Shown piece after piece: positions 30,282 to 42,626 of a DNA stretch of 64,000 bases. A program made the position numbers and the translations under genes. The DNA lies in contig NZ_CP009505.1 of assembly GCF_000970045.1 (NCBI RefSeq), positions 1,860,001 through 1,924,000 on the forward strand, given 5' to 3'. Numbering within the stretch: position 1 is the first letter of the stretch; each line of letters opens with the position of its first letter. This DNA is from Methanosarcina sp. MTP4. Its GTDB lineage: Archaea > Halobacteriota > Methanosarcinia > Methanosarcinales > Methanosarcinaceae. Below the pieces are notes generated by a model. That model was given only the letters and a program-made list of their open reading frames with translations. It searched no databases and had not been told where the DNA came from.

Positions 30282-30359
30282 GGCTTATACAACAGGGTAT
30301 AAAATAAAAATAGTTTCGTGCATCGGGATGACCCACGGAGGTGCCTGATGCATTGGGCT

Positions 30360-30514
30360 GACCTTTTGAGATGACCTTTTGAGATGACCTTTTGAGATGA
30401 CCTTTTGAGATGACCTTTTGAGATGACCTTTTGAGATGACCTTTTGAGATGACCTTTTGAGATGACCTTTTTCAGGACAGGCCTTTTTCAGGACAGGCCT
30501 TTTTCAGGACAGGC
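30360..30514 (+). repeat. Two adjacent tandem arrays (13 bp x 8, 16 bp x 3)
   Basis: Eight perfect copies of GACCTTTTGAGAT (30360-30463) run into three perfect copies of CTTTTTCAGGACAGGC (about 30467-30514). The arrays lie in the divergent promoter region between the DUF2284 and universal stress protein genes. Perfect identity of units suggests recent slippage expansion. Confidence 0.93.
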
Positions 30515-33043: not shown

Positions 33044-33129
33044 TCGTAAAAAGCAGACGTTAATGGGCAGAATAATGATCCAGAACAAATTTTAGAATCA
33101 ATACTCTTATTCACATTTTTGGTATAAAT

Positions 33130-33306
33130 ATGAATCCTGAAGCTCTCAAACAATTACTGACCTTTCTGGATATCGATCCTGATAACATTGAAGATGAAAC
33201 GTATGCCAAAATTATTCGTACTCTACTTTTTATCATTAAGGGACAGAACAGAGAGATTGAATTCCTTAAAGCAGAAACACAGAAGCTTCGAGATGAAATC
33301 AACTTA
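33130..33306 (+). pseudogene. IS66-like transposase, N-terminal fragment
   Basis: About 59 codons, ending where the IS5 element begins at 33307. YAKIIRTLLFIIKGQNREIE and FLKAETQKLRDEIN are nearly identical to the start of the second copy at 38092. The leucine-heptad pattern is the coiled-coil N terminus typical of IS66-type transposases. Truncated by insertion plus internal deletion. Confidence 0.8.
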
Positions 33307-34160
33307 GAGCCTATCCGAAAAGTCCCGCTGCTCTGAAAGTAACCCATGAGCATGCGAAATGAAGCATAGCAAAGTAATTCTCAAGCTTCTTTTCCCATCG
33401 AATTAGCAGTCTTCTGAATCGATTCAGCCAAGAATACGTCCTTTATAGAACCCACCTTCTTGCCTTATGACTTGGTATCTTTTTCTATTTTTTCTTCTCC
33501 ACGTCTTGGGATATGGGCAGTATATCCATATTCTTCAACCAATTTTCTGATATCAGGAAAATCATATCCCTTATCCATGCACATATTCTGAATTACTTCA
33601 TGTGAAGGTCTTTCAATAATTGTGGCATCAAGAGTTTCTTTTACAAGCATTTTATCGTGACGATTGGCTCCATCCACGGCAACAGAAAGTGGTATGTCTT
33701 TACCCTCAGTAAACATACTCCCTTTTGTTCCTTTTTTACCACGGTCAGTAGGATTAGCACCGCTTCCATCTCCTCCCAATGGTGCTTTTGTCATAGCTCC
33801 ATCAATTGCTTGCCACTCCCACTCTAATCCTTTTTTGTTGTCATACTCTGCCACATTGTCTCAAATAATCCTGCCCTTTGCCATTCCTGAAATATATCAT
33901 GTACAGTGCTTGGAGCTCCATAACATCTTGGCAAGGCTTTCCATTGACAGCCAGTGCGAAGGAGATAATAAATACCGTTCATTATTTTCCGATCGTCTTC
34001 TCGCCGTCTTCCAGGCTTCTTTTTCGTCTTTGGGAGTGGTATTTAAGATTTGACTATATTCCAGAATTCGTCTGAGATCTCGTAGTTATGTCCCTTTTTT
34101 CGTTTTGTCACTACTACAAATTACCATACATAGCAGTTCTTTTACTTTTCGGATAGGCTC
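33307..34160 (-). mobile_element. IS5-family (IS427-group-like) element, 854 bp
   Basis: Ends are a perfect 17-bp terminal inverted repeat: GAGCCTATCCGAAAAGT at 33307-33323 and its complement ACTTTTCGGATAGGCTC at 34144-34160. It is flanked by TA on both sides (33305-33306 and 34161-34162), the target duplication usual for this group. The transposase inside is broken, so the copy is dead unless moved in trans. Confidence 0.9.
33465..34111 (-). pseudogene. IS5-family transposase, broken
   Basis: Starts at GTG 34111 (MTKRKKGHNYEISDEFWN), hits an in-frame TAA after IVKS, resumes as KIMNGIYYLLRTGCQWKALP and PSTVHDIFQEWQ, then changes frame near 33850 to EWEWQAIDGAMTKAPLGGDG (first catalytic Asp region). 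GSMFTEGKDIPLSVAVDGAN and MCMDKGYDFPDI carry the second Asp. One stop and one frameshift make it non-functional. A DDE transposase of IS427 type would normally be expressed as two overlapping frames, so the frameshift may partly be natural. Confidence 0.8.
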
Positions 34161-34162
34161 TA

Positions 34163-34498
34163 AAAAAGGATATGAAAATTTCGATGATAGAACCAGTAAG
34201 ACGAAAGAAAACAATTAAAGTCTATTGATGGTATTAACTTTGCCAGAGATTCCTTTGCGTAACAATGCGGCAGAATTAGCAGCAAGAGCAAAGATCTGAA
34301 AAAGGAATGTAAGCCTTAACTCTGTGACAGATGAAGGAACAAAGGCAAATGATACATTCATGACAAATATTCAAAAAGCAAAGAAATTGTGTTTAAATGC
34401 ATATGATTACATCCTTGATAGAATGAGCAATAAATTTGAGATGCAATCTCTGGTTCAACTCATCAAAGAAAAAAGTGCATTGAGTTGAAAGTGAAGAG
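34163..34498 (+). pseudogene. IS66-like transposase, C-terminal fragment
   Basis: Matches the end of the second copy: LLMVLTLPEIPLRNNAAELA, ARAKI, then an in-frame TGA, then SLNSVTDEGTKANDTFMTNI. In this copy the frame after KANDT stays open longer than in copy 2 (YDYILDRMSNKFEMQSLVQL) and ends at TGA 34498. PLRNNAAEL-type sequence is the conserved DDE C-terminal region of IS66 transposases. Non-functional. Confidence 0.75.
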
Positions 34499-34667: not shown

Positions 34668-34931
34668 ATGGGTCAGCGTATAGTATTTGAATTCATTGAA
34701 AATCCCACCCGAGAGCCAGAAAAGTGGGCCAAGGTCAAGAAGATTATTCTGGACGCAGGAGGAACTCACCTTTCCGAACCACACGGAATCCCTCCTCACA
34801 TTATGACGGCTGTTTTGCCCAACGAAGTGCAAGCACGCAAAGTAATCGCACTACTTCGTACAACAGATGGGGTAGACCAAGCCGATTTGGATGCAATGAG
34901 CAAGGCGCTCGGGGGAAATGATGATGTCTAA
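34668..34931 (+). CDS. Small protein of the protease/ATP-grasp cassette
   Basis: 87 residues, not recognised. It looks like an alpha/beta ferredoxin-like fold (GQRIVFEFIENP, KVKKIILDAGGTHL, HIMTAVLPNEVQARKVIALL), the same general shape as subtilisin I9 propeptides and inhibitors, so it may be a trans-acting chaperone or inhibitor of the subtilisin encoded 25 nt downstream. That is inference from fold impression and position. AAAGGTGAT lies 4 nt before ATG 34668; the frame also has ATG at 34665 and GTG at 34659. Confidence 0.65.
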   Translation: MGQRIVFEFIENPTREPEKWAKVKKIILDAGGTHLSEPHGIPPHIMTAVLPNEVQARKVIALLRTTDGVDQADLDAMSKALGGNDDV

Positions 34932-34956
34932 TAAATTAAAAGAAGGTGAATAACAA

Positions 34957-36885
34957 GTGTCTACAAAAGGAACTAAGGATATTCAAGAAGGTATTCCGTT
35001 CGGTCCAGACTTTGATAATCGCGTTCCTGGAGAGTTGCTAGTGAAGATTAACCAGGAAGCCGAGATGAGTATAACTGAAAGCATGCCTTCTGGACCTATT
35101 CGTCGCGTCTCTTCAACGCTACCGACTCATTTTGGTATCGAAGCTTTGGATCAGGTAATTGAGGAATTCGAAATCAAGTCTATCTCAAAAGTTCACAGTC
35201 CCATATCGAATATAACCATGGCGGGGATTGATGAACTCTTTACTGAAGAGATTCCTGGTCTCGTCTCAAGGAGACCTGCACAAACTCGGTTGGCGAGCAC
35301 AGCTGAAGAAATGAGTGCGACCTATCGCCTGCGTTTTAACCCTGCAAAGGATTTGAACAATGCGGCTGAAAAGCTCTCCAATGTCGAATCTGTAGTCGAG
35401 GTATCTCCTAACTACTTTAGGTTCTCTTTGGTGACTCCAAACGACCCGCTGTACAGCACGGAATGGGGCTTAGAGAAGATTAACTGCTCAGAGGCGTGGA
35501 ACCGGACTACGGGAAGTGCTTCCGTGACTGTGGCTGTTGTTGATACGGGCGTAGACCTCGATCATCCTGATCTCCAAGAGAACCTGCTGCCAGGCTATGA
35601 TATGGTTGATCTGGTTGGCGTTTCTCCAGAGCCAGGATGGCATTTTGAGGGCGATTTTCTGACTCGTGACAACAACCCACAGGATGAAGTAGGTCATGGC
35701 ACTCATGTTGCAGGCACAATCGCTGCCCTTACGAACAACGCCATTGGCGTTGCAGGAGTTACTTGGAAATGCAAGATACTGCCAGTGAAAGTCCTAGCGC
35801 GCATTGTGCACAATATTCACGGCTGGGTTTCAGGTGTTGGTTCTGCTGTGGATATCGCTGCTGGCATTCGCCATGCAGCAGACCATGGAGCACATATAAT
35901 CAATTTGAGTTTGGGCGGCTATAACGATACCTTCGTTGAGAGAAATGCTGTCGCTTATGCTATAATGAAAGGTTGCGTGGTGGTTGCCGCTATGGGCAAC
36001 GATGATGTTAGTGATCTATCATATCCTGCCGCCTATCCTGATGTAGTGGCTGTTGGAGCCATCAATCAGAGCGAACAGCGTGTAACGAAAAAGAATACGA
36101 ACGGTTGGTGGGGATCCAACACTGGCTCCCATATTGATCTCGTAGCCCCTGGTCTCATGATTCGTAGCACCGATTGGAACAACACATATTCTCACAAAAG
36201 TGGCACTTCGATGGCTGCGCCTCACGTGTCCGGTGTAGCCGCACTGGTTAAGTCTTGCAACCCCAACCTGACAGGCTCCCAAGTTGCTCAAATTCTGCGA
36301 GACACGACTCGTGCACTTAGAGACAAAGCAGATGATCCAGTGCCAAATGATAACTACGGTTATGGTCTTGTGGATGCTAAAGCTGCCGTTAACAGAGCAT
36401 GCCCTAAACTGAAATTTGTAGATGGTCCAAAGTTTAAGTTTCAGGATGATCAACCAAAGTTTAAGTTTCAGGATGATCAACCAAAGTTTAAGTTTCAGGA
36501 TGATCTACCAAAGTTTAAGTTTACAGATGACCCTATAAAGCTGAAGTTTCGGGATGATCCACCAAAATTTAAGTTTAGAGATGAACCTAAGCAGCCGGGC
36601 CTTGATCAGGGCCGTCCACCTTACTTGCCAGAAAGGTGTGCACCATTCATACTTGCAACACCTCACCATTCTGATGCCTGGGTTGCATCTTATCCTGCAG
36701 ATTATCCGGCTATGGCTGGAAACTACGAGGTCAATCTCGCAAACCTTGCGTCAAATATAGCTTTGCTAGAAGAGGTAGGTCAACAGAATGGACTAACTGA
36801 AAATGGAATGCAGAAACTTGAATATTTGCGCCAGCAGTATCAGGCATTACTTTCAGAATATCAAGAAATAACTCAACAGGGTTAA
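34957..36885 (+). CDS. Subtilisin-like (S8) peptidase with KFKFxDD repeats
   Basis: 642 residues, no signal peptide, so probably cytoplasmic. A propeptide-like region lies near residues 118-155. The S8 catalytic domain follows with Asp196 (VAVVDTGVDLDHPD), His247 (GHGTHVAGT), oxyanion Asn348 (VAAMGNDD) and Ser418 (SGTSMAAPHVSG), all intact. Residues 483-544 are seven tandem 8-9-residue units of the form P-K-F-K-F-x-D-D-x. A helical tail of about 95 residues ends the protein. The repeats resemble substrate segments for the ATP-grasp ligase encoded 84 nt downstream. GTG 34957 is preceded by AAGGTGA. Codon use differs from the core genes, fitting horizontal transfer. Confidence 0.93.
   Translation: MSTKGTKDIQEGIPFGPDFDNRVPGELLVKINQEAEMSITESMPSGPIRRVSSTLPTHFGIEALDQVIEEFEIKSISKVHSPISNITMAGIDELFTEEIPGLVSRRPAQTRLASTAEEMSATYRLRFNPAKDLNNAAEKLSNVESVVEVSPNYFRFSLVTPNDPLYSTEWGLEKINCSEAWNRTTGSASVTVAVVDTGVDLDHPDLQENLLPGYDMVDLVGVSPEPGWHFEGDFLTRDNNPQDEVGHGTHVAGTIAALTNNAIGVAGVTWKCKILPVKVLARIVHNIHGWVSGVGSAVDIAAGIRHAADHGAHIINLSLGGYNDTFVERNAVAYAIMKGCVVVAAMGNDDVSDLSYPAAYPDVVAVGAINQSEQRVTKKNTNGWWGSNTGSHIDLVAPGLMIRSTDWNNTYSHKSGTSMAAPHVSGVAALVKSCNPNLTGSQVAQILRDTTRALRDKADDPVPNDNYGYGLVDAKAAVNRACPKLKFVDGPKFKFQDDQPKFKFQDDQPKFKFQDDLPKFKFTDDPIKLKFRDDPPKFKFRDEPKQPGLDQGRPPYLPERCAPFILATPHHSDAWVASYPADYPAMAGNYEVNLANLASNIALLEEVGQQNGLTENGMQKLEYLRQQYQALLSEYQEITQQG
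36403..36588 (+). repeat. Seven coding repeats within the peptidase gene
   Basis: DNA encoding one 8-residue and six 9-residue units: PKLKFVDG, three of PKFKFQDD(Q/L), PKFKFTDDP, IKLKFRDDP and PKFKFRDEP. Units 2-4 are nearly identical in DNA (27-bp period), indicating recent duplication. Later units diverge in DNA but keep two Lys, Phe and two acidic residues, which suggests selection on the peptide pattern. Confidence 0.95.
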
Positions 36886-36969
36886 TAGTGTTGTAGATGT
36901 GGTGGCTTGCCGAGTTGAAGTTCTCTCACTTGGTTTGCCTCCTCTCTACGAGCTAACGGAGGTAGGAAT

Positions 36970-37917
36970 TTGATTCTTATTATTTCATCACAAAGCGACG
37001 ACCACGCGAAAATTGTAATGGAGAAACTGATGCAGATGGGAGCAAATGCCAGTTTGCTTGACCTGTCTAAATTTCCCCAGCAAATGCATCTAACCATGTC
37101 TTATAAAAACTCCATCCGCAATTTTTCCCTATGCCTATCAAATCAGGTCGATCTTCCACTAGGGGACTGCAAGGTCATTTGGTCTCGACGCCCACAACCG
37201 TTTGACCCACATCCTGAAATTGTTCAAGAATCGCATCGCAGATTTGCTTACAGTGAAAGTCATGAGGCGTTTTCTGGTTTGTGGCAGGCAATAGATGCCT
37301 TTTGGATTAACCATCCAATTCGTGACGAGGTTGCTAGTCATAAAGCCTACCAACTTCGGATCGCTCAAGAAGTAGGTTTTAACATCCCAACCACTCTCAT
37401 CACCAATGATCCTGGCGCTGCACAGAACTTCATAGCCGACCAAGGCTATGACAAGACTGTTTACAAATCATTTCTTGCGACCGAACAGGAATGGCGCGAA
37501 ACCCGCCTCCTAAGACATGAAGAACTAGCTCTAATAGACTGCGTACGCTATGCACCTGTAATCTTTCAAGAGTATATTCCTGCGGGAATTGACCTCAGAA
37601 TCACAATTGTTGGAGAGCAAATTTTTGCTTCAGCAATTCATTCCAAAGATGTGAACTATAAAGTCGACTACCGCATGGAAATGTCACGTGCTCGAATCGA
37701 GCCTTTTCATCTTCCAGAAGATATTGAGCAAAAATTGCATAAATACATGAAAAAACTCGGCATAGTCTATGGCGCAATCGATATGCGTGTGACTCCCGAA
37801 GGACGCTATGTATTTTTTGAAATAAACCCGGCGGGACAGTGGCTTTTCATTGAGGAACGAACTGGCCAACCAATAACAACTGCCTTTGCTAACTTGCTCG
37901 CTGAACACGATCGATAA
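36970..37917 (+). CDS. ATP-grasp ligase, graspetide (MvdC/MvdD) type
   Basis: 315 residues. The N-terminal preATP-grasp part has KVIWSRRPQPFD and QAIDAFWINHPIRDEVASHK. The ATP-grasp core has KAYQLRIAQEVGFNIPTTLI, VIFQEYIPAGIDLRITIVGE, and the metal/ATP signature DMRVTPEGRYVFFEINPAGQ followed by WLFIE and TGQPIT. This pattern matches ligases that close omega-ester or omega-amide rings between acidic side chains and Thr/Ser/Lys in microviridin-like peptides. TTG 36970 with GGAGGT upstream sets the start. No separate precursor peptide gene is seen, so the repeat-bearing subtilisin next door is the likely substrate (inference). Confidence 0.88.
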   Translation: MILIISSQSDDHAKIVMEKLMQMGANASLLDLSKFPQQMHLTMSYKNSIRNFSLCLSNQVDLPLGDCKVIWSRRPQPFDPHPEIVQESHRRFAYSESHEAFSGLWQAIDAFWINHPIRDEVASHKAYQLRIAQEVGFNIPTTLITNDPGAAQNFIADQGYDKTVYKSFLATEQEWRETRLLRHEELALIDCVRYAPVIFQEYIPAGIDLRITIVGEQIFASAIHSKDVNYKVDYRMEMSRARIEPFHLPEDIEQKLHKYMKKLGIVYGAIDMRVTPEGRYVFFEINPAGQWLFIEERTGQPITTAFANLLAEHDR

Positions 37918-38756
37918 TTTTGTCGTATAATTGGTTGGTTTTGTAGAAAATCTCAGGAATAGCAATACTATTTTCCACAAAACCAACAGATATGCAATTA
38001 ATCGTATCCTCTTTAAATCTGATGGATTTTCAATCACAGGAAAAATATAATAGTTGTTCCATGTACTCTTATTCACATTTTTGGTATAAAAATGAATCAT
38101 GGAACTCTCACAAAATTATTGACATCTTTATATGTCGATCCAGATGACATTGAAAATGAAAACTATGCCAAAATTATTCGCACTCTACTTTTTATCATTG
38201 AGGAACAGAACAGAGAGATTGAATTCCTTAAAGCAGAAAACCAGAAGCTTCGAGATGAAATCAACTTACTCAAAGGTGAACAAGCCAAACCTCAAATTCG
38301 TGGCTCAAAAAAGAATCGTGACATCTCTTCTGAAAAAGAAAGAAAAATAAGAACCCCTCCATAGATTAGGGGTTATAATTCAAGAAAAGATAAAATCGAG
38401 ATTCATCATACTGAAACTTACAAAGTTGATAAATCTACTTTACCTGGCGATGCATGTTTTAAAGGTTATCGTTGCGTAACGGTTAGAGATATCATTGTGA
38501 AACCCTGGAATACCAACCATCTGATAGAGGTTTTTTACTCACCTTCAGAAGGTAAAACATATTCAGCCTGACTTTGACAGTTTCCACTAATTTTAATTAA
38601 AATTTCCTTCAGTTTTCCCGATTTTTGTCAGAAAAAGGTATTTGACAGTTCAAATAAATTTGTCAATTTTTCTAAGAAATTCCCTGTTTTTGGGTTAAAA
38701 TCAAGCGATTTATGGAATCAAAATTGGCATAAATATAAGTTTTATTCTTATTCTTC

Positions 38757-40024
38757 GATAGCGTACCGAAAGTTCTGTAAAATATGATTGACTCTGTATC
38801 CTTTTCCTTTCACCACAAAAAAAACAGGATGCAGAGTCAATGATCAATGTATTACCACTTATTAGAGATTATCTTATCGATCAGGAAGAAGGACTTCGCC
38901 AGTTAATTACCTGGTTTTTAAACCTTGTAATGGAAGAGGAAGCCCTTCTACAGTCAGGTGCAGAACGCTACGAGAGGACTGATTCCCACAGAGCCAATCG
39001 AAACGGTTACAAACCTCGTACTCTCCTTACGAAATATGGTCAACTGGAACTCTCCAAACCTCAATTCCGAGAGTTTTCGTTCGAGACAGAAGTGTTTGAG
39101 AAGTATTCTCGAGTTGAGAAGGCCATCTTGACAGCCGTAACAGAGTCCTACTTACAGGGAGTCTCCACCCGAAGGGTGGATAAAATTATGACTGCCCTGG
39201 GAGTGGGAAATATCTCAGCATCTTCTGTATCCAGGATTACTAAAGAGCTGGATGAGAAGGTTGAAGAATTCCTTACAAAGCCGATTGAGCATGAAATTAA
39301 ATATCTTTTTGTTGACGCAACTTATTTTAAAGTAAGAGACGGGCTCCATTATAGAAGCAAGGCCCTCTTCGTCGTTGCCGGCATCAGGGAAGACGGTTAC
39401 CGTGAAATCCTTGGAACAAGATTAGCAGACAGTGAAGACTCTCTTTTCTGGGAAGATCTCTTTGACGATTTGAAGGAAAGAGGCTTGAGAGGTGTTGAAC
39501 TAATCGTTTCTGACGGCCATAAAGGGATACAGAAGGCAGTAAAGGAGTCTTTTATCGGTGCAAGCTGGCAAATGTGTCACGTACATTTGATAAGGCAAGC
39601 TCTTAAGAAGGTACCAAAAAAGAAGCACAAAGAGATAGCAGACAAGATTAAAGAAGCATTACAAGACCCGGAAAAGTTGAGGGATTTAATCAGGGAACTT
39701 GATGGAAGTGGATACAAAAGTGCAGCAAATACCATTGAAAGTTTCCAGTTTGATTTACTGAATTATATGCAGTTTCCAAAAAAACATTGGAGAAGGGTAA
39801 GAACAACCAATATGGTGGAGAGGACAAATAAGGAGCTCAAAAGGAGAAGCAGGGTAGTTGGAGCATTCCCGAGTCAGGAGTCAGTATTGAGACTTGCAGT
39901 CTCAATACTGATAGACATCAACGAAGATTGGATTACAGGCAACAGATATTTAGTAATGGAAGAGTAATCAAAATAGAGAGTAGAGGGTACAGAGAGAATT
40001 TTACAGAAAACAAGGGACACTATC
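38757..40024 (+). mobile_element. IS256-family element inserted in the IS1634-type element
   Basis: Imperfect inverted ends begin GATAGCGTACC on the left and GATAGTGTCCC (complement) on the right and share TTCTGTAAAAT 16 nt further in. Length about 1268 bp. The expected 8-bp target duplication is not exact: TATTCTTC at left versus TATTCAGA at right. The right end supplies the last codons and stop of the IS1634 transposase. Confidence 0.8.
38840..39967 (+). CDS. IS256-family (mutator-type) transposase
   Basis: 375 residues, apparently intact. The DDE catalytic set is visible: IKYLFVDATYFKVRDGLHYR (first Asp), GVELIVSDGHKGIQKAVKES (second Asp), and RVRTTNMVERTNKELKRRSR followed by VVGAFPSQES (Glu, mutator signature). 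YERTDSHRANRNGYKPRTL is the usual N-terminal zinc-less DNA-binding part. It lies wholly within its element and is probably active. Confidence 0.93.
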   Translation: MINVLPLIRDYLIDQEEGLRQLITWFLNLVMEEEALLQSGAERYERTDSHRANRNGYKPRTLLTKYGQLELSKPQFREFSFETEVFEKYSRVEKAILTAVTESYLQGVSTRRVDKIMTALGVGNISASSVSRITKELDEKVEEFLTKPIEHEIKYLFVDATYFKVRDGLHYRSKALFVVAGIREDGYREILGTRLADSEDSLFWEDLFDDLKERGLRGVELIVSDGHKGIQKAVKESFIGASWQMCHVHLIRQALKKVPKKKHKEIADKIKEALQDPEKLRDLIRELDGSGYKSAANTIESFQFDLLNYMQFPKKHWRRVRTTNMVERTNKELKRRSRVVGAFPSQESVLRLAVSILIDINEDWITGNRYLVMEE

Positions 40025-41372
40025 TATTCAGAAAATCTACGGTAACTGTCAAATTCGATAGGCTCTTTTTTATGAATTTTGTTGACGTATGCTTGAGTTC
40101 TTTGAACTCATATCGCATCAGCGATATGAGTAATTGAGCAATGAATCCTATGATTATTGCTCCGTAGATGCTTTCATCCGTCCAGACCCTTAGTGGTTTT
40201 ATTTCGATTTCGTTTTTCAGCGAGTTAAATATTTTTTCAAGTGAGTCCTTTTTCCTGTAGGTTTCAAGAGCATCTATAAGTGTCAAATTCTTTCTTGATT
40301 TTAGGCAGAAAAATCCTTCTCTTCCGTTAATTACCTCTTCTTCAAGGAGATCAAAGGCTTCTTTTTCAGTCATCTCAACCAGCTTTGTCTGGTATGAATA
40401 ACTTATATCAATGAGTTTATTATTGATTCTGAATTTCTTAGGAAGTTTCTTATTCTCATCAATTGATTTCTGTATCTCTTTTGCCTCTTCCACCATTCTC
40501 TGCACTTTTCTGACTCTTGCTTCCAGTTGCTGTTTTTTTAAAGCTTCTGAGAAATAGAGGTAGTTTGTACTACTGGGTTTTGCGATCTTTATTCCATAGA
40601 TTCCCTTCTCTTTATCAACGACTTCAGTTTCAAGCTGATCAAACCTTTTAATCAGCTTATCATCACTGGTGTTGAGCTTTTTCGCAGTAAGGTAATTCAT
40701 TTCATCTTCTTTGATCAGAGCTAGATTTTTTATGCTATTTGCACCTTTGTCAAAAACAACAAGTGACTCTTTATTAAGTCTGCTTTTTACCTGCTGATAC
40801 GTTTTTTTAAAATGAGTCTGATCGGGAACGTTTCCTTTTTCTACAGTAATTCCAACAGGTAAGTTTATTGGATCTGCAAGTTCGCTTACTCCTAAAGTAA
40901 TCTGTTTTTTATCCGGACGATGGTTGCGGCTGTAACCATATTTACCAAGTGGAGACTTGTCACCATAAAGAACGATACTTGTCCAGTCCATGTTGATATT
41001 AGTGTGTTCAAAATTGTATATGGAGAACAAAACATCCTGAATATCCAGAATGATCTCTTCCTTATTACTTCCCAAAGTTTGAAGGGTTCTGTACAGAACC
41101 CTTTCATTGAATTTTTCAAGATTGAAAAATTCCAGGACTTCGTCCTGGTTAATCCATTTATGAGCCCGATCAATGCTAAAGTTCTCTGTAAGTTTATAGC
41201 TAAGCAAAGCTTTGATCAAAGAATTGAAGTCGATACCTCTAGTCTTATGCTTTCCTAAAATTGAGGAAAAATTAAGCTGTTCATACAGGTTTTCAACAGC
41301 AAGAATGGTTCCGATGGGAAAGCATATATTCTCGTTAGGAGTTATTTCGTATGTTCTTAGTTTTGCTTGCAT
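40020..41372 (-). CDS. IS1634-family transposase
   Basis: 450 residues, DDE type of the IS4-like superfamily. INMDWTSIVLYGDKSPLGKY with GYSRNHRPDKKQITLG (first Asp region), SLVVFDKGANSIKN (second Asp) and FFCLKSRKNLTLIDALETYR with KKDSLEKIFNSLK (Glu, YREK-like) are recognisable. The IS256 element entered at the extreme 3' end, so the last two codons and the stop come from IS256 DNA; the original C terminus was a few residues different. Otherwise intact. Confidence 0.9.
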   Translation of the reverse strand: MQAKLRTYEITPNENICFPIGTILAVENLYEQLNFSSILGKHKTRGIDFNSLIKALLSYKLTENFSIDRAHKWINQDEVLEFFNLEKFNERVLYRTLQTLGSNKEEIILDIQDVLFSIYNFEHTNINMDWTSIVLYGDKSPLGKYGYSRNHRPDKKQITLGVSELADPINLPVGITVEKGNVPDQTHFKKTYQQVKSRLNKESLVVFDKGANSIKNLALIKEDEMNYLTAKKLNTSDDKLIKRFDQLETEVVDKEKGIYGIKIAKPSSTNYLYFSEALKKQQLEARVRKVQRMVEEAKEIQKSIDENKKLPKKFRINNKLIDISYSYQTKLVEMTEKEAFDLLEEEVINGREGFFCLKSRKNLTLIDALETYRKKDSLEKIFNSLKNEIEIKPLRVWTDESIYGAIIIGFIAQLLISLMRYEFKELKHTSTKFIKKSLSNLTVTVDFLNR

Positions 41373-42626
41373 TTTGGTCGATCAAACATTACTAAGAACT
41401 ATGATTTTTATTTAACTGTCAAACTTAGGATTCAGGTAAATTGCCAGATGGTATCAAAGGTGAATTTGGTCCTGGACTCAGGACCCTTGTCCTGACGTTA
41501 TACCATGTTGCCAATGTTTCAGAACCTAAAATCCACGAGTTTCTGGAAAATATGGATGTTTTCATATCCAAAGCCACAATTTCTCGGATGCTGACAAAAA
41601 ATATTAATTACCTCCATAAAGAGAAAACTGAGATTTTTCAAGCAGGTCTCAATTCCACAAAGTACCAGCAAATCGATGACACAAGTGCTAGAGTTAATGG
41701 AGATAATTGGTATACTCAGATCCTTTGCAATCCTCATTACACTGCTTATTTTACAGTTCCATGTAAGAATCGGGGAACAATTTTAGAGATACTACAATGT
41801 GGAAATGAAAAAACATACTGCTTCAATGAAGAAGCATTTGATTTGATGGAAACGTTTAACATAGCAAAAAAGTGGCAACAAAAACTTTCTGCTTTCAAAA
41901 ACAAAGTATTCAGTGACGAGGAAATGCATCGGAAACTGGATCTTCTTTTCTCACCTGATGGATATAAAACCATTAAGAAGAGAATCCTTGAAGCCTGTGA
42001 AATTGCTTCATATCATCAGATGACAAACATACCTGTGGTTACCACTCTTTTAAGTGATGATGCACGTCAATTCAAGCAACTTACATACCATCATGCCCTA
42101 TGCTGGATTCATGATGGGAGGAATTACAAGAAGTTGCGTCCAGTAGTACCTTATCGTAAGGAAAAGCTGAAAGCTTTTCTGGATAGATACTGGGATTATT
42201 ATGGAAAACTTTGTGAGTTTAGAGAAAATCCAAAATCAGAGGTAGCGGAGCGGTTATCCACTGAGTTTAATAAGTTATTTTCGACCAAAACAGGATATGA
42301 ACAGCTCGATGATAGAATCAGTAAGACAAAAGAAAACAAGGAAAGTCTATTGATGGTATTAATTTTGCCAGAAATACCTTTGCATAACAACGCAGCAGAA
42401 TTAGCAGCAAGAGCAAAGGTCAGAAAAAGAGATGTGAGCCTTCACTCTGTAACAGATGAAGGAACAAAGGCAAATGATACACATGACAAATGTTCAAAAA
42501 GCAAAGAAATTGGGTGTAAGTGCATATGATTACAACTTTGATATAATGAGGCTTTCCACCCAATTTGAAAAGGATAAATCTTCAAAACAAATTCGCACTT
42601 AAAAATATAAAGAAGTTTGATGCCAA

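Follow-up and report, generated by a model that had tools for sequence, protein, structure and literature searches.

The window analysed here is a stretch of 64,000 nucleotides from Methanosarcina sp. MTP4 (contig NZ_CP009505.1, positions 1,860,001–1,924,000). The subject of this study is a pair of adjacent genes within it, encoding a protease with a graspetide-precursor-like tail and an ATP-grasp ligase. Three open reading frames (ORFs) on the forward strand form an apparent operon. The first (34668–34931) encodes a small protein of 87 residues, the second (34957–36885, GTG start) encodes the S8 protease of 642 residues with the tail fused to it, and the third (36970–37917, TTG start) encodes the ligase of 315 residues, which is MvdC/MvdD/TIGR04187-like. 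The gap between the protease stop codon and the ligase ORF is 84 nucleotides, and plausible ribosome-binding sites were recognized by eye for all three ORFs. The neighbours of the pair in the window are the 87-residue ORF and insertion sequence (IS) elements, and no other obvious peptidase or transporter lies beside it.

According to the Pfam search, residues 189–470 of the protease (35521–36366) correspond to the Peptidase_S8 domain (E = 8e-55). The catalytic triad is intact, with Asp196 in VVDTGVD, His247 in GHGTH and Ser418 in GTSMAAP. No signal peptide was seen by eye at the N-terminus. The tail follows the catalytic domain and begins with seven units of the form [PI]-K-x-K-F-x-D-[DEG] at residues 483–543 (36403–36585): PKLKFVDG, three copies of PKFKFQDD, PKFKFTDD, IKLKFRDD and PKFKFRDE. 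The underlying DNA array (36427–36584) has a period of 27 nucleotides, 5.9 copies and a score of 207, and is thus a genuine tandem repeat and not a chance pattern. The eighth unit, PKQPGLDQ (residues 544–551, 36586–36609), has a K-x-P-x-x-D form that recurs in all the relatives described below. Then come the sequence PFILATPHHS (residues 563–572, 36643–36672), a candidate leader-like motif for ligase recognition located C-terminally to the core, and a C-terminal segment of 70 residues, in which the pattern L-x3-YQ-x-L-x2-EYQ is conserved (36754–36882) and which looks coiled-coil-like by eye. The triad, the seven units and the ligase gene 84 nucleotides downstream agree in position and character with a preliminary description of this locus, in which the eighth unit and the PFILATPHHS motif went unnoticed.

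The ligase matches the Pfam family ATPgraspMvdD, the MvdD pre-ATP-grasp domain, above the Pfam cutoff (E = 3e-13). The best NCBIfam model is TIGR04187 (253.6 bits against a cutoff of 350), followed by TIGR04184 (202 against 475) and TIGR04185 (195.7 against 425); these cutoffs are thresholds for naming and not biological requirements. Profile matches also relate the ligase in sequence to the structures of MdnB, MdnC, CdnC and PsnB.

A scan of a genome collection with the window ligase detected six relatives with 46–58% identity in the best segment, and a plasmid search detected a seventh with 53% identity in Burkholderia stagnalis. In all seven cases the tail signature is located in the gene directly upstream of the ligase. 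In six of them the tail is fused to a protease with active-site motifs: an S8 protease in an acidobacterium (L002) and a member of the Phycisphaerae (L003), a trypsin-like S1 protease in a member of the Cytophagales (L004) and in Caulobacter hibisci (L006), and an M43 zincin in a planctomycete (Planctomycetota, L005) and in B. stagnalis (L009). The seventh locus is on a contig of a metagenome-assembled genome (MAG) of Nitrosopumilus (L007); this contig starts inside the tail, and the N-terminal part is not visible. Thus, every relative with a visible N-terminus (6/6) adjoins a tailed protease. The preliminary description had named as a refutation of its proposal that ligase homologues never stand beside KFKFxDD proteases, and this outcome did not occur. 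The spacing between protease and ligase ranges from a 4-nucleotide overlap (L005, L006 and L009) to a 96-nucleotide gap, and the association spans six phyla and two domains of life.

The catalytic domains of these proteases differ far more than the tails and ligases do. The window S8 domain shows just 24–28% identity over about 200 residues to those of L002 and L003, and ordinary S8 proteases from related archaea are nearer to it (33–38%). Neither the S1 nor the M43 domains are related to the S8 domains. Across catalytic types, the ligases are 44–57% identical and the tails 26–44%; the tail percentages include repetitive sequence and come from unfiltered searches, so the motif PF[IVG][LI][AS]TPHH is firmer evidence. 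Because the tails and ligases remain similar although the catalytic domains diverge or are unrelated, one tail and one ligase are, by sequence comparison, common to four distinct catalytic types, which we designate S8-A, S8-B, S1 and M43. The two ligases of the S1 loci group with full tree support despite their hosts belonging to Bacteroidota (L004) and Pseudomonadota (L006), which suggests that the S1 protease–ligase pair moved whole by horizontal transfer. Monophyly of the tailed ligases was neither shown nor rejected (approximately unbiased test, p = 0.47), and the clade of the eight together with the ligase of locus L024 (G1091, described below) was supported at 95/96. When the tail alone was searched against 7.3 Gb of plasmids, one record matched, the same record that carries the 53%-identical ligase. 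No match to the tail was found in phages, and three scans of viral contigs gave no relative. A sample of about 2000 genomes, drawn by phylum, class, order or family, gave no further tailed locus at strict thresholds; therefore, the tailed system is rare.

The M43 and S1 catalytic domains also have relatives that lack both tail and ligase; the M43 ones occur in Rhizobium next to a partner gene, the small lipocalin-like gene that L005 and L009 also have. A lipocalin-like protein of 105–111 residues is encoded beside M43 proteases, both tailed (L005:3744–4061 and L009:4066–4401) and tail-less (L054:6113–6442). It is homologous between L005 and L009; its lipocalin match lies under the Pfam cutoff, and its AlphaFold2 (AF2) model, with a predicted local distance difference test (pLDDT) value of 48.6, is too poor for use. 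Its position suggests a protease-specific partner, perhaps an inhibitor. Plasmids of unrelated bacteria also carry tail-less relatives of these proteases, in multi-hydrolase clusters (M43, M28, M4, S8, S1 and murein hydrolases): L054 of Rhizobium, L055 of Priestia, L056 of Geminocystis and L057 of Sinorhizobium.

The motif PF[IVG][LI][AS]TPHH is present C-terminally to the core in all seven complete tails and is of the graspetide leader type. It fits the consensus Phhx(1,2)h of Makarova et al. (PMC8939145), and the PFILATPHHS-type motif did not occur in 20,000 shuffles, although it was chosen after being seen. In the Nitrosopumilus locus, the sequence APFVLSTPHM stands before five K-x-P-x-x-D units. 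Ligases with weaker E-values have other putative precursors, often with a leader-like motif, such as the N-terminal sequences MVPFILSQ (in a small putative precursor), MKPFIFQ (in a 53-residue ORF of G262), PFGIEFLEE (in ORFs of G945 and G957) and PFFARYLE (in microviridin-like ORFs). G1091 encodes, directly upstream of a related ATP-grasp gene on the reverse strand of L024 (6401–7528 in reverse-complement coordinates), a 375-residue protein that is not a protease, contains many DPK repeats and ends with GPFILTTNWPY. Since the other candidate precursors of the distant ligases often bear related motifs, the leader-like motif tracks the ligase among these putative substrates, and its C-terminal placement is not restricted to proteases. 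One acidobacterial genome has three tandem ATP-grasp genes (L025:7348–11925), with small PFG[IV]EF ORFs before at least the first.

In order to compare the repeats, 55 units from eight proteins were aligned by eye, with the frame set on Lys, Thr or Ser at position 2 and Asp at position 7. Position 2 is Lys in 39 units, Thr in 14 and Ser in two, and position 7 is Asp in all 55, letters that partly defined the units. Position 4 is Lys in 37, Pro in 13, Ala in four and Ser in one. An acidic residue is located at position 8 in 35 of the 37 units with Lys4, and in none of the 18 units without it (Fisher p = 1e-12, a value overstated by the shared ancestry of units within a protein and by the frame set by eye). 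The B. stagnalis tail has only one unit with Lys4, and this is also its only unit with an acid at position 8; the last unit of each protease tail, of the K-x-P form, follows the pattern as well. Position 2 is Lys in the S8 tails, mostly Thr or Ser in the M43 tails, and mostly Thr in the Burkholderia tail. The core thus carries paired Lys/Thr/Ser donors and Asp/Glu acceptors, as in known graspetides. The covariation of the acid at position 8 with Lys4 suggests, as the simplest reading, two rings per full unit, one between positions 2 and 7 and one between positions 4 and 8. A nested pairing (2–8 and 4–7) would predict that position 7 is lost along with Lys4, and no such loss is seen. The preliminary description had proposed Lys–Asp isopeptide links. 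This is incomplete, as the Thr or Ser at position 2 in the relatives leads us to expect ester links too.

We consider it probable, at roughly 0.8, that the protease tail is the cross-linked substrate of the adjacent ligase, because tail and ligase co-occur across unrelated protease types, the tail has a leader motif, and donors and acceptors covary. Sequence evidence thus lends good support to the substrate role that the preliminary description proposed for the tail. The remark in that description that a separate precursor peptide is missing is also consistent with a tail that has precursor features of its own, including the PFILATPHHS motif. The locus would then be a two-gene graspetide-type module with the protease C-terminus as the precursor. 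The ligase would recognize PFILATPHHS, downstream of the repeats, as a natural follower instead of a leader. We infer that each unit would be cross-linked from Lys, Thr or Ser2 to Asp7 (i,i+5) and, where Lys4 is present, from Lys4 to Asp or Glu8 (i,i+4), so that the product would resemble macrolactam or macrolactone beads on a string. A natural follower is plausible, because an engineered follower construct of fuscimiditide is still modified with just a two-fold loss of rate (Johnson et al., 2026, PMC13003496) and a graspetide synthetase acts on protein-containing or protein-fused substrates (Choi et al., 2025, PMC12291112).

Several points weigh against this interpretation. The known loci number just eight, several of them from MAGs, and the ligase lies under the TIGR04187 cutoff. 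Units within one protein are not independent, positions 2 and 7 guided their alignment by eye, two units with Lys4 (PKLKFVDG and IKWKWADA) lack the acid at position 8, and the 2–7/4–8 pairing derives from covariation in few lineages. The role proposed below for the modified tail depends on tail-less homologues, which are compatible with release as well.

Given modification, we hold weakly, with the chances about even, that the modified tail is kept on the enzyme and acts in cis for the protease, either as a stiff extension that resists proteolysis or as a regulatory element. Two observations favour this role: all the proteases look as if they have retained catalytic activity, and tail-less M43 and S1 relatives exist; that the protease exists without the tail slightly favours a cis role over a precursor that has borrowed a peptidase. 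The best of the alternatives, which we regard as doubtful, shares the substrate claim and differs on the role: the fused protease would cut its own cross-linked tail and free one or more graspetides. Unrelated peptidases could fill such a maturation job, which would explain the swapping, and active-site motifs of all four types are present in all complete proteins. No other obvious peptidase or transporter lies beside the window genes, and S8 peptidases mature other ribosomally synthesized and post-translationally modified peptides (RiPPs), for example NisP, an enzyme that cleaves itself close to the C-terminus (PMC10885120). However, neither a GG-type nor any other conserved cleavage site was seen by eye between the catalytic domain, the core and the leader motif; there is no export gene, and M43 and S1 relatives exist that have neither tail nor ligase, with a partner gene beside the M43 relatives in Rhizobium.

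The cis role includes one special case that we consider unlikely, in which the cross-linked tail would inhibit its own protease intramolecularly as a zymogen-like switch, in line with the inhibition of serine proteases by microviridin and plesiocin. All graspetides characterized by 2022 are protease inhibitors (Makarova et al., PMC8939145), and the potency of plesiocin rises with the number of repeats (PMC13097080). The residue at position 2 also differs between S8 and M43 tails, a difference that ancestry alone may explain. The same tail is, however, also found on M43 metalloproteases. Makarova et al. (2022) proposed for the peptidase-linked branches 7 and 8 that the peptidase cuts other cellular proteins to feed the ligase; that this applies here and that the tail is incidental is very improbable. 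That hypothesis was published for loci with unrelated peptidase families and no detected precursor (PMC8939145), whereas the present tail has a leader motif, a donor/acceptor alphabet and covariation, and was kept while the protease was swapped. Tandem repeats expand easily, but the association over six phyla and two domains, with a conserved motif and tight gene spacing, leaves hardly any room for the view that the repeats serve as a linker, structural or ion-binding, and stand only by coincidence beside an ATP-grasp enzyme that modifies something else.

The system resembles the TIGR04187/MvdC/MvdD graspetide systems (microviridin and plesiocin) in full-length ligase homology, a precursor next door, a Phhx(1,2)h motif, Lys/Thr/Ser donors and Asp/Glu acceptors. 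It differs in that the precursor is the C-terminus of a protease of 460–640 residues, the motif follows the core, and the core is K-x-K-x-x-D-D. Microviridin has a short precursor with an N-terminal PFFARFL-type leader, a cage core and two ligases, whereas here one ligase accompanies a C-terminal PFILATP and repeated KxKxxDD. Corallotide (group 15, PMC13097080) also has a long repeat precursor, and the Lys–Asp i,i+4 isopeptide proven in its KIVADDP sequence is similar to K4-x-x-D-D8. The corallotide system has a 2-oxoglutarate oxygenase and a beta-lactamase, one ring per repeat and no protease fusion, whereas neither of the two genes is among the neighbours of the window pair. In the fuscimiditide construct (PMC13003496) the recognition sequence also follows the core, an arrangement that was engineered there and called unnatural, and that is apparently natural here.

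The association of graspetide ligases with peptidases is already known (Makarova 2022; Carter 2026). Compared by locus content alone, branches 7 and 8 of Makarova 2022 (PMC8939145) are similar, with several unrelated peptidase families beside the ligase and no small precursor; their substrates were proposed to be encoded elsewhere, whereas in the present loci the candidate is the tail of the peptidase. Group 32 of Carter 2026 (PMC13097080) has diverse neighbouring protease families and may overlap with the present loci; its main text, on which this comparison is based, treats the proteases as maturation or resistance genes. In the texts compared there is no statement that the peptidase carries the precursor, and earlier notice is possible.

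The host is a methanogen, with HdrA2 and an archaeal GatE encoded nearby, and no match was found in 149 searched relatives. The operon lies between two direct and decayed copies of an IS66-like element on the forward strand. The left copy is at 33102–34427; the right copy (38064–42550, DDE_Tnp_IS66) is interrupted by an IS256/Mutator-type transposase gene (38840–39967, forward strand) and a DDE_Tnp_1 transposase gene (40020–41372, reverse strand). The copies share direct repeats of 205, 195 and 69 nucleotides with 89–90% identity, and the G+C content is lower in the IS surroundings than in the flanking host genes. By its arrangement the protease–ligase region resembles a composite transposon, and it was probably acquired horizontally, in line with the earlier view that a methanogen host is unusual. 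Tandem repeats of 13 bp are located at 30359–30471 (8.7 perfect copies) and 1646–1829 (14.3 copies) of the window.

The 87-residue protein has no Pfam or NCBIfam match and no homologue in the related loci or plasmids. Its single-sequence AF2 model (pLDDT 82.6) is ferredoxin-like, with a best structural match that is not significant (E = 0.02). A role as chaperone or inhibitor, proposed in the preliminary description, thus finds no backing, and a reading as an I9-like subtilisin inhibitor was rejected, as the model is ferredoxin-like and the match to POIA1, at rank 25, is not significant (E = 0.13). A role of the locus in antiphage defence was also rejected; the matches were limited to generic subtilase models and weak IetS ones.

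The fused tail is a candidate answer to the precursor-less, peptidase-linked ligases of Makarova et al. (2022). If the present loci are among these, the substrate would be fused to the peptidase and would escape searches for short precursor genes. If the proposal is true, the loci would provide natural cases in which a graspetide recognition sequence lies C-terminally to the core, and a sequence-derived ring topology (2–7 and 4–8) that is easily testable. The host range gains a methanogen and, from a MAG contig, a Nitrosopumilus. Tentatively, and with somewhat less than even confidence, we suggest that graspetide ligases may act here as protein modifiers and not as producers of a natural product: a mobile tail-plus-ligase module on unrelated proteases would give a lasting cross-linked appendage that controls stability, activity or location. 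This would be a possible case of RiPP chemistry modifying a working enzyme.

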